From: Halopiger goleimassiliensis
GTDB taxonomy: Archaea; Halobacteriota; Halobacteria; Halobacteriales; Natrialbaceae
Length of the DNA stretch: 64,000 nt
Reading direction: 5' to 3'
Assembly (NCBI RefSeq): GCF_000455345.1
Contig: NZ_HG315690.1
Span: 1,997,360-2,061,359, forward strand
Part shown: in pieces, positions 20,678 through 58,830 of the stretch
Layout: every line of letters starts with the position of its first letter
How positions within the stretch are numbered: position 1 is the first letter of the stretch
Program-made: the position numbers and the translations under genes
The notes under the pieces: generated by a model
The model's input: the letters and a program-made list of their open reading frames with translations, nothing else
What the model was told of the DNA's origin: nothing
The model's database searches: none

Positions 20678-22630
20678 TCAGTCCTGCAGGAAGTCCGGCT
20701 CCGTCCGCTTCTCGTCGCGTTCGGCCCGGAGATGCCGTCTGAACGCGTCGATCGCGACGTCGTACTCCTGGTCCTCGAAGCGGTCGCGCACCGAGATGTT
20801 GCCGGCTTCCTCCTCGTTGTCGCCGACGATGATCTGGTAGGGGACGCGGTCGTCGTGGGCCGCGCGGATCTTGCGCTCTAAGGTCGCGTCCCGGTCGTCG
20901 ACCTCGACGCGGAAGTCGTCGAACTCGCTCGCGACCTCGCGGGCGTACGCGAGGTTCTCGTCGGAGATGGGCAGCACGCGGACCTGCTCGGGCGCGAGCC
21001 ACAGCGGGAAGTTGCCCTCGAAGTGCTCGATGAGCATCATGAAGAAGCGCTCGTAGGAGCCGTAGAGGGCGCGGTGAATCATAACGGGGCGGTGTTCCTC
21101 GTTGTCCTCGCCGACGTAGGTCAGGTCGAACCGCTCGGGCATGTTGAAGTCCAGCTGGACTGTCGGGCCGTCCCACTGGCGACCGATGGCGTCCTCGAAG
21201 GCGTAGTCGATCTTCGGCCCGTAAAACGCGCCGTCGCCCGCCTCGAGTTCGTACGCCATCTCGCGGTCCTCGAGGACTGACTCGAGTTGCGCTTCCGCCT
21301 TCTCCCAGATCTCGTCGGAGCCGACCGACTTCTCGGGTCGGGTCGCGAGGGCGACCTCGTACTCGAGATCGAACGTCTGTAGCACCTCGTCGATCGAGTC
21401 CATGATCGCCTCGACCTCGCTCTCGATCTGGTCGGGACGGACGAACAGGTGGCCGTCGTCGATGGTGAAGGCCCAGACCCGCGAGAGGCCCGACAGTTCG
21501 CCGCGCTGTTCCTTCCGGTACACCTTGCCGTCCTCGGCGTACCTGACGGGGAGATCGCGGTAGCTCCAGGAGCCGTCGTCGAAGATAGTGGCGTGGCCGG
21601 GGCAGTTCATCGGCTTCAGGCCGAACTCGTCGTCGCCGAGTTCGAAGACGAACATGTCGTCCTTGTAGTTCTCGTAGTGGCCCGACTTCTGCCAGAGATC
21701 CGTCTTGAACAGGTGCGGCGTCTCGACGTAGTCGTAGCCCGACTCCGCGTTGAGGTCGGTGACGAACGCGGACAGTTCGTTCAGGACGGTCTTGCCCGGC
21801 GGGTGATACAGCGGCAGGCCCGGACCGGTCACGTCCTGGATCGAGAAGAGGTTCATCTCGGAGCCGATCTTGCGGTGATCGCGCTCTTTGGCCTCCTCGC
21901 GCCGCTCTATGAACGCCTCGAGGTCGCTCTCGTCCTCGAACGCGGTGCCGTAGATGCGGGTCTGCATCTCGTTTTCCTCGTCGCCGCGCCAGTACGCGCC
22001 GGCGATCTCGAGTAGTTTCACCGCGCCGATTTCGCCCGTCGAGTCGACGTGCGGGCCGGCACAGAGATCCTCCCACTCGCCCTGTTTGTAGAAGGAGACG
22101 GTATCGTTCTCGTCGGCGAACTCCTCGAGCAACTCGAGTTTGTAGGGTTCGTCCGCGAGGCGTTCTTCGGCCTCCTCGATCGGGACTTCCTCCCGTTCGA
22201 TGTCGTAGTCGGCTTCGACGATCTCCTTCATCTCCGCTTCGATCGCCTCGAGGTCCTCCTCGTCGACGTCTAAGTTGTCGAAGTCGTAGTAGAACCCCTC
22301 GTCCGTCGGCGGGCCGATGGCGAGTTTGACCTCCTCGGCGTCGAAGAGTCGTTCGACGGCCTGGGCGAGACAGTGCGAAGCGGAGTGGCGCATCACGCGC
22401 AGGTAGTCCTCGCCACCGTCGTCGGTGACGATCTCGAGTTCGGCCCCGTCGTAGACGGGTTCCTCCTTGGCGACGAGGTCGCCGTCGAGTCGGCCCGCGA
22501 CGGTGTCGCTCCCGAGGCCGGGACCGATCTCGTAGGCGCAGTCCTCGACGGTCGCGTCGGCGTCGACCTCGAGTTCCGAGCCGTCCGGCAGTACCACTGT
22601 AACCGTTTCCTGTGGATCTGATTCTGACAT
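20678..22630 (-). CDS. thrS: Threonyl-tRNA synthetase (bacterial-type domain layout)
   Basis: ThrRS charges tRNA-Thr. The 650-residue protein has a TGS domain (about 10-68), the N2 editing domain with the HSASHCLAQ motif near 83 and [13 protein letters not shown] near 190, the class II catalytic core, and a C-terminal anticodon-binding domain (about 545-640). Zinc ligands are visible in MNCPGHA, DDGHLF and MIHRALYG. This is the bacterial-like layout, not the archaeal form with a DTD-like editing domain. The start at 22630 follows directly from a long structured upstream region. Confidence 0.97.
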
Positions 22631-22678
22631 GTGTGTAGCTACCGCTGGGTGGGGAACTTCGGTGAGAAGTTCGATCGC

Positions 22679-22773
22679 GTGTCCGCCGGTACCGCTCGAC
22701 TGCGTGGGAACGACACAGCGAGCGGTAGGTGGTGATGGTTAGAAGCGGGCGAGAGCCCCTGTAAAGCGGACAC
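22679..22773 (-). ncRNA. Candidate structured RNA or leader upstream of thrS
   Basis: The 95-base segment about 50-145 bases upstream of thrS can fold into a three-way junction. P1 pairs 22679-22686 with 22766-22773 (8 bp, perfect), P2 pairs 22690-22698 with 22719-22727 (9 bp, perfect), and P3 is GGGC-GAGA-GCCC at 22747-22758 (drawn on the plus strand). Two more perfect stems are close by: 22654-22660 with 22666-22672, and 22724-22731 with 22771-22778, which conflicts with P1 and P2. The strand and function are unproven; a thrS leader is the simplest reading. Confidence 0.35.
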
Positions 22774-22920
22774 CTACCATCGTGGATACGCGTAGTCTCG
22801 AGCAGGTTAAAAACATTGTGATGGCCTGCGAGACGCGGGACAGCGTCGTCGCGCCGAACGGGACTGCCGAGACCGTCTCGGATCGGTACTCGTTTTTCCC
22901 TGCCCTACGAGGGCCAGCGT

Positions 22921-30930: not shown

Positions 30931-31001
30931 TGCGCTGGCTGGGATTTGAACCCAGGTTGTGACCATGGCAAGGTCACGTGATACCACTACACTACCAGCG
31001 C
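30931..31001 (-). tRNA. tRNA-Gly (anticodon GCC)
   Basis: Read on the minus strand from 31001, the acceptor arms GCGCTGG and CCAGCGC pair perfectly, the anticodon stem TGACC/GGTCA closes loop TTGCCAT with anticodon GCC, and the T arm is CTGGG-TTCAAAT-CCCAG. The discriminator base is A; CCA is not encoded. The tRNA decodes GGC and GGU. The 3' end serves as the site of the duplicated fragment at 30771-30800. Confidence 0.95.
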
Positions 31002-31291: not shown

Positions 31292-32188
31292 ATGACCGTC
31301 AGCGTGCTCGTGCCGTCGTCGCTCACCCGGGAAGCCGAGGACAAACGCGAGGCAACTCGCAAACTCGGATACGTCGCCCGCGCGGCGACGGTCTTCCGGG
31401 CCGATCGCCTGATCGTCTTCCCCGATCCGGAGGGCGAAACCGGGCGATTCGACGGCGGGTTCGTCAGTACCGTCCTGCGGTACGCCGCGACGCCCCCGTA
31501 CCTCCGAAACGAGGTCTGGGGCAAGCGGGACGAACTGGAGTACGCGGGCGTCCTGCCGCCGCTCCGCGCCGTGTCACGGACCGGCTCCGAATCGAACGAT
31601 TCGGGGTCGTTAAGACAAGGGATCGTGACCGAGGTCGGACCTGATCATCGCGTCCGGGTCAATTGCGGCTTGCAACACCCGATCTCGCTCAACGTACCGC
31701 CCGAAATGGCGGTCGCTGAGGGAGAACGCGTGACAGTCAGGATCTCTTCGCGACGACCGGTCCGGGCGAAGCTCGTCGACCGGCCCCTTCCGGGGCTGTC
31801 GGTCGAGCGGACGGACCTTTCGGCAGCACTCGGCCGTGAGGACGCCGGCGTCCGCATCGCCGCCTCCCGCTACGGTGAACGGCTCACCGTCGGGCGGCTC
31901 GAGACGCTGGCCGGACGCGTCGAGGCCGACGGGATGACCGTCGCCTTCGGCGCGCCCGAGAGAGGGCTGCCGAGCATCCTCGGAATCGAGGCGTCGGCCG
32001 TCGAGTCGTCGTCCACCGGGGACGACGCCGGACGATCGTCCAACCGGGACGACGCCGACGACGGAGTCGAACCCACAGACCCCGGGTTCGACCTCTGGTT
32101 GAACACGGTTCCGAACCAGGGAAGCGAGGTCGTGCGAACGGAGGAGGCTCTGTTCGCCACCCTTGCTCCCCTCTCACTCAGAGAGTGA
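31292..32188 (+). CDS. Putative SPOUT-superfamily RNA methyltransferase
   Basis: The 298-residue protein starts MTVSVLVPSSLTREAEDKREATRKLGYVARAATVF, which matches the DUF171/SPOUT RNA methyltransferase family that commonly opens the archaeal uL3 cluster. A central OB-like insert follows (about residues 100-160, VTEVGPDHRVRVNCG), and the knotted C-terminal SAM-binding region includes TVAFGAPERGLPSIL and FDLWLNTVPNQGSEVVRTEEALFATLAPL. It is expected to methylate rRNA. The gene ends four bases before the uL3 start codon. Confidence 0.85.
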   Translation: MTVSVLVPSSLTREAEDKREATRKLGYVARAATVFRADRLIVFPDPEGETGRFDGGFVSTVLRYAATPPYLRNEVWGKRDELEYAGVLPPLRAVSRTGSESNDSGSLRQGIVTEVGPDHRVRVNCGLQHPISLNVPPEMAVAEGERVTVRISSRRPVRAKLVDRPLPGLSVERTDLSAALGREDAGVRIAASRYGERLTVGRLETLAGRVEADGMTVAFGAPERGLPSILGIEASAVESSSTGDDAGRSSNRDDADDGVEPTDPGFDLWLNTVPNQGSEVVRTEEALFATLAPLSLRE

Positions 32189-58759: not shown

Positions 58760-58830
58760 GGGACCGTGGGGTAGTGGTATCCTCTGCGCATGGGGTGCGT
58801 AGGACCCGAGTTCGACTCTCGGCGGTCCCA
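58760..58830 (+). tRNA. tRNA-Pro (anticodon GGG)
   Basis: The acceptor arms GGGACCG and CGGTCCC pair fully; the anticodon stem TGCGC/GCGTA closes loop ATGGGGT with anticodon GGG; the T arm is CCGAG-TTCGACT-CTCGG. Discriminator base A, no encoded CCA. It decodes CCC and CCU. Its 3' end is the source of the degenerate fragments downstream. Confidence 0.95.

Follow-up and report, generated by a model that had tools for sequence, protein, structure and literature searches.

Is the threonyl-tRNA synthetase gene of a haloarchaeon controlled by an RNA leader, and what would such a leader sense? The question arises in a 64,000-nt stretch of the Halopiger goleimassiliensis genome (the window, meaning the whole of the DNA analysed), in which thrS (20678..22630, minus strand) encodes a bacterial-type threonyl-tRNA synthetase (ThrRS) of 650 aa. 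This gene is the presumed target of a leader RNA that would run from about 22783 down to 22631, thrS lying on the minus strand. A preliminary description of the region had pointed to four perfect inverted repeats and a tetraloop hairpin upstream of thrS, had nested three of these stems as a three-way junction with a fourth as its mutually exclusive alternative, and had cautioned that high GC content could produce such stems by chance.

The repeats are present at 22654-22660/22666-22672, 22679-22686/22766-22773, 22690-22698/22719-22727 and 22724-22731/22771-22778, and the GGGC-GAGA-GCCC hairpin at 22747-22758, just as described. The minimum free energy fold holds the second, third and tetraloop stems of the junction, plus the first stem, and the fourth is an excluded alternative that overlaps the second by 3 nt and the third by 4 nt. 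Chance stems are a poor explanation: the minus-strand leader folds at -60.6 kcal/mol, compared with -44.2 +/- 3.8 kcal/mol for dinucleotide shuffles (z = -4.28; 1 of 200 shuffles as low), and the region is conserved in about 110 species with compensatory changes in mutually exclusive helices. The plus strand is less striking (z = -2.26). A search of 22560-22920 returned no Rfam family match at E<=5. Elsewhere in the window, Rfam strongly matches an L4-Archaeoglobi ribosomal protein leader (RF03135, 70.8 bits, 31641-31740, plus strand), a tRNA-Gly at 30931-31001 was found by both ARAGORN and Rfam, and ARAGORN calls a tRNA-Pro (GGG) at 58760-58830 (plus strand) that falls below the Rfam tRNA gathering score.

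The most conserved element upstream of thrS in relatives is an open reading frame, not a loop. This uORF (22739..22780, minus strand), a conserved core that the preliminary description had not included, holds the starts of the second and fourth stems. It is leaderless, with 13 codons plus TAA (peptide MVGVRFTGALARF), and reads ATG GTA GGT GTC CGC TTT ACA GGG GCT CTC GCC CGC TTC TAA (22780-22739). Its exact motif, ATGGYAGGTGKCNRYTTTACA, occurs in 111 of 392 Halobacteriales whole genomes, always in one copy each, and a reversed control pattern gave 0 matches in the same 392 genomes. Almost all members of the GTDB family to which the window belongs (Natrialbaceae) have the motif, and outside it the motif turns up in three further families and in a single genus of another. 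Of the 112 distinct leaders recovered, a position could be assigned to 111, in every case 5' of thrS at a distance of 90-268 nt. Archaeal-type thrS genes lack the leader, as seen in three relatives from family f1 that have that enzyme instead, and these genome comparisons show that the leader is tightly linked to bacterial-type thrS.

The preservation of its frame suggests that the uORF is apparently translated. Between nt 22 and 60, 72 of 72 non-redundant species have a stop in frame with the uORF, against 0/72 and 3/72 for the other frames. This stop interchanges among TAA, TGA and TAG in relatives, and uORF length ranges from 10 to 18 codons, varying in whole codons with the frame kept. The conserved part of the peptide is M-[VA]-G-[VG]-x-F-T, and the C-terminal half is free in length and residues. 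In two leaders (L016 and L322) the exact motif has been lost and replaced by an N-terminal part about 48 nt longer, with a new leaderless ATG and a divergent middle in the same frame; these extended uORFs end in RFTRAVARF (L016) and RFTRAFARF (L322) before the stop. In another leader (L162, genome G117), a large inverted repeat has been inserted between the hairpin of the uORF and the downstream region 2; its uORF is extended to 18 codons, and the P1 helix described below is retained. We also considered and rejected that the uORF is read through into thrS or fused to it in frame: the spacer is open to the same degree in each frame (89, 87 and 85 of 111) and thus gives no coding signal. The uORF-thrS distance is a multiple of 3 in 90 of 111 leaders, above one third, an excess of shared frame that possibly reflects common descent together with triplet-repeat slippage.

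Within the uORF, the rare codon pair TTT ACA (Phe6-Thr7; 22760..22765, minus strand) is invariant in the leader alignment (A1); the alignment was gathered with a pattern that fixes region 1 (the first uORF codons) and TTTACA, and the invariance was cross-checked on loci found through thrS itself, where it holds, including in both extended uORFs. Among the genes of the window, ACA accounts for 3.4% of Thr codons and TTT for 6.1% of Phe codons. We propose that the ACA at 22760-22762 is a threonine sensor codon. As a counterpoint, there is a single Thr codon, it adjoins an equally invariant Phe codon, and what is conserved in TTT-ACA may be the RNA and not the codons. Bacterial leader peptides usually carry runs of cognate codons. 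Alternatively, the conserved M-[VA]-G-[VG]-x-F-T residues may mark a peptide that itself acts in a sequence-specific manner, by nascent-chain arrest or as a small protein, in response to a signal other than threonine. This is distinctly improbable: the C-terminal half is variable (10-18 codons), L016 and L322 have a different N-terminal half, and the wobble bases of the rare codons, needless for a peptide, are invariant as well.

Promoter sequence places the uORF at the very start of the predicted transcript. A TATA box (TTTTTAA, 22807..22813, minus strand) with a BRE-like ATCACAATG upstream lies about 30 nt above the uORF ATG in the window; of 104 relatives scored, 98 have 31 or 32 nt between TTTW and this ATG. 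This arrangement predicts that transcription starts at about 22780-22783, i.e., at the uORF ATG and upstream of 22679, in favour of the preliminary description, which a start downstream of 22679 would have contradicted. Leaderless transcripts are typical for haloarchaea (PMC3986360). Since the TATA-ATG spacing matches that of leaderless haloarchaeal mRNAs, we read the uORF as leaderless.

The arms of the competing helices can be numbered from the 5' end of the RNA (all on the minus strand). Region 1 comprises uORF codons 1-5 (GGTAGGTGTC..) and can pair with region 2 (forming P1) or region 4 (forming P2). The P1 5' arm, GGTAGGTG, lies in codons 1-4 at 22771..22778, as seen from sequence and alignment pairing; its 3' arm, region 2 (CACCTACC, 22724..22731), begins 7 nt past the uORF stop, and its last 4 nt also begin P3. 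The P2 5' arm, GTGTCCGC (22766..22773), overlaps region 1 and is assigned from sequence and arm permutation, and its 3' arm, region 4 (GCGGACAC, 22679..22686), from matched changes across species. P3 joins TACCGCTCG (22719..22727), which overlaps the P1 3' arm, to region 3 (CGAGCGGTA, 22690..22698), both arms resting on arm permutation. The tetraloop hairpin P0 (22747..22758) sits within the uORF directly 3' of the Thr codon; its stem is retained in most relatives, often in a shifted register, and is lost in genus g80. P4, a hairpin near the thrS start (GAACTTC-TCACC-GAAGTTC, 22654..22672), is lineage-specific, occurring in 22 of 72 non-redundant leaders.

Compensatory substitutions in related species support P1, P2 and P3 alike. 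In the main P1 helix, 92.8% of cells are paired across 71 relatives, with a U-A to C-G change in 7 sequences and many G-C/G-U exchanges. Sliding the partner arms as a control lowered whole-structure pairing from 92.5% to 33-52%. A whole-structure shuffle control was mixed: paired cells, covariation score and double-change cells exceeded all shuffles, and the number of pairs with double changes did not. P1 stands at the 5' end in nearly all lineages; L016 has lost the motif that holds its 5' arm. RNAalifold yields a weak consensus for the core alignment (-3.1 kcal/mol, 6 pairs), blurred as it is by gaps and by hairpins that change register, and the helices were hence tested arm by arm. P2 and P3 arms are out of register in the alignment, so permutation tests were used rather than column counts. 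For P2, the downstream arm reads GCGGAC or ACGGAC in step with CCGC or CCGT in the uORF (Fisher p = 9e-6, 51 non-redundant species), other lineages show TGTCTGC/GCAGACA and TGGCTAC/GTAGCCA, and a leader's own arms beat permuted arms in 400/400; P2 is missing from several lineages. P3 arms pair at 7.96 of 9 positions within a species, versus 7.60 +/- 0.07 with arms permuted among species (0/500), examples of matched arms being CCGCGTGTT/AGCGTGCGG and CCGCCTGCT/CCAGGCGG. These pairing tests count species as independent, which makes their p-values optimistic; the sturdier covariation evidence is that of separate lineages with matching double changes. Together, the comparative data show two covarying fold sets, in which P1 excludes P2 and P3, and P2 and P3 are mutually compatible. 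The archaeal thrS-controlling RNA leader that the preliminary description had envisaged is supported: the leader is deeply conserved, both of its mutually exclusive folds covary, and the promoter about 30 nt above it is conserved too. It is nevertheless more than a plain structured UTR sensing threonine or tRNA, for its conserved, apparently translated leader peptide with an invariant Thr codon points to a device that senses the ribosome and not to a riboswitch or an E. coli-type thrS operator.

These fold sets also bear on a simpler possibility, that the uORF or 5' hairpin is constitutive and sets mRNA level or stability without sensing anything. P1 closes off the 5' end in almost every lineage, and modelling gives no clear on/off difference at thrS, as such a hairpin would allow. 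A constitutive element does not predict two covarying, exclusive folds or the cognate-codon leaders that we describe below at trpS and pheS, and we regard it as improbable.

We consider it likely, instead, that the thrS leader acts in cis by sensing translation of its Thr codon, in the manner of an attenuator, with a ribosome slowed at that codon selecting the RNA fold. Transcription would begin at or within about 3 nt of the uORF ATG, so that the first ribosome would load on a leaderless 5' end. With plentiful threonyl-tRNA, this ribosome would clear the rare TTT-ACA pair, terminate at TAA and depart, leaving region 1 free to form P1. With scarce threonyl-tRNA, it would wait with ACA in the A site, covering region 1 and preventing both P1 and P2, and region 2 would then build P3. 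A ribosome at ACA (nt 19-21) should mask roughly nt 1-33, which includes region 1. Expression of thrS would then change, presumably upwards. We infer the translation of the uORF, the stalling at ACA and the direction of this response.

How the chosen fold might reach thrS was considered at several steps. An intrinsic terminator was rejected, most leaders having no U-tract (longest T-run mostly 2-4 nt). Simple sequestration of the thrS start codon was rejected as well: its partition-function accessibility is 0.57 in the free leader, 0.59 with a stalled ribosome and 0.56 with a ribosome at the stop. An SD-like motif precedes thrS in 1 of 87 f1 leaders and 15 of 24 other leaders; family f7 has a short leader (about 105 nt) in which P3 pairs with a GGAGG-like element just 5' of thrS, and the motif is paired in P3 in the f7 folds. 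Lineages with longer leaders rarely have an SD motif. Candidate output steps would be factor-dependent termination (FttA/aCPSF1), SD-less initiation at thrS, reinitiation or mRNA decay.

Bacterial leader-peptide attenuators (trpL, thrL, pheL and pheM) are among the closest known parallels. Like them, the thrS leader has a short leader ORF with a cognate codon (the invariant ACA), a region 1 inside that ORF, mutually exclusive 1:2 and 2:3 pairings (P1 versus P2 and P3, all covarying), and a position ahead of a gene that makes or charges the same amino acid. Unlike them, it is archaeal, its uORF is leaderless at the very 5' end and has a single Thr codon, it has no intrinsic terminator, and in f1 it adds a 1:4 pairing (P2) that closes around 2:3. 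The leader may thus operate as bacterial leader-peptide attenuators do, yet it is not to be classed with them, since most leaders have neither a U-tract terminator nor a sequestered start as output, start accessibility being unchanged.

Two other bacterial modes of thrS control could also account for a structured leader. E. coli thrS is autoregulated through an mRNA operator, a mimic of tRNA-Thr to which ThrRS binds at the ribosome-binding site. Comparable autoregulation here, with the synthetase binding a tRNA-Thr-like part of the leader and blocking its own translation, would fit the strong, conserved P3 hairpin and the restriction of the leader to the bacterial-type enzyme. The archaeal leader differs in its uORF and in its loops, however: those of P0 and P3 vary freely among relatives, with no conserved anticodon-like loop of the kind found in an anticodon-arm-like hairpin, and an SD is mostly absent (again 1 of 87 in f1). 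The leader is therefore not clearly an E. coli-type operator. Autoregulation would also leave the frame-specific stop, the leaderless ATG and the parallel Trp and Phe leader peptides unexplained, and appears unlikely. Alternatively, the leader may be a riboswitch for a metabolite, or it may resemble a T-box and bind tRNA-Thr directly, its ACA pairing with the UGU anticodon. The T-box logic is known from bacterial thrS (Firmicutes), and the invariant, codon-like ACA upstream of thrS could serve as a specifier. This is highly improbable in view of the missing Rfam match and of alignments in which no further unpaired motif is conserved that could receive the 3' end of a tRNA; moreover, the uORF start and in-frame stop, needless for a T-box, are kept, which implies ribosomes rather than direct tRNA binding.

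Sensing through a translating ribosome gains a wider context from independent leader peptides at other synthetase genes. A trpS motif, TGGCGNTGG..GCGGACAGT, occurs in 115 of 392 genomes (low background in the reversed control), and of 30 such loci fetched, 26 prove to be uORFs with Trp codons that precede one of the trpS genes, for example MRSALSTWRWQTPGERTVS and MAASDGWRWRWRTSEADSLATPAAR, each followed by a stop. These look like trp-type leader peptides. Leaderless Trp-codon uORFs (WRW, WRWRW) precede trpS across haloarchaeal families (L292-L321 and L216-L222; G000:C2:675212-675244, outside the window), and arms such as GCTCTCGAG / CTCGAGAGC flank their Trp codons. At pheS, 10 of 15 loci examined have leaderless uORFs with Phe-rich ends (GFGFFFAR before the stop, or near variants), and in the window's own genome the pheS uORF ends in GFGFRFRG. 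The pheS uORFs (L276-L290) lie up to about 270 nt upstream of pheS and are followed by conserved GAAACCG and GTCGGAACCGCTAACTGA. In the upstream regions of ileS, leuS and hisS that we read, no similar leaders were seen, and these genes look leaderless.

Mapped transcription starts in Haloferax volcanii place short uORFs before a tryptophan--tRNA ligase and pheS: Table 2 of that study lists one of 23 aa for the ligase gene HVO_A0127, which has a long 5'-UTR, and one of 26 aa before pheS HVO_2948 (PMC4983044). That table gives uORFs by size and isoelectric point, with neither cognate codons nor RNA switching mentioned in it and thrS not among its entries (PMC4983044). Three synthetase genes, each with a leader peptide containing its own codon, point to sensing of charged tRNA via the ribosome, and another explanation for this pattern is hard to find. 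On balance, we lean slightly towards a general ribosome-sensing leader-peptide system in haloarchaea, spanning thrS, trpS and pheS, in which leaderless cognate-codon uORFs choose between mRNA folds. It would be a counterpart of bacterial attenuation that has no need of intrinsic terminators and may act by factor-dependent termination or by controlling initiation.

To our knowledge, leader-peptide attenuation has been described for bacteria and not for archaea; we found no record of it in archaea in the open-access literature, a search that could miss a report in a subscription journal. The proposal is testable at once in H. volcanii, a species open to genetic work in which uORFs have been mapped ahead of both pheS and a trpS gene. 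If true, it would mean that archaea, too, gauge their supply of amino acids by way of a ribosome translating a leader ORF, and that they have a route from ribosome position to gene expression that needs no U-tract terminator.
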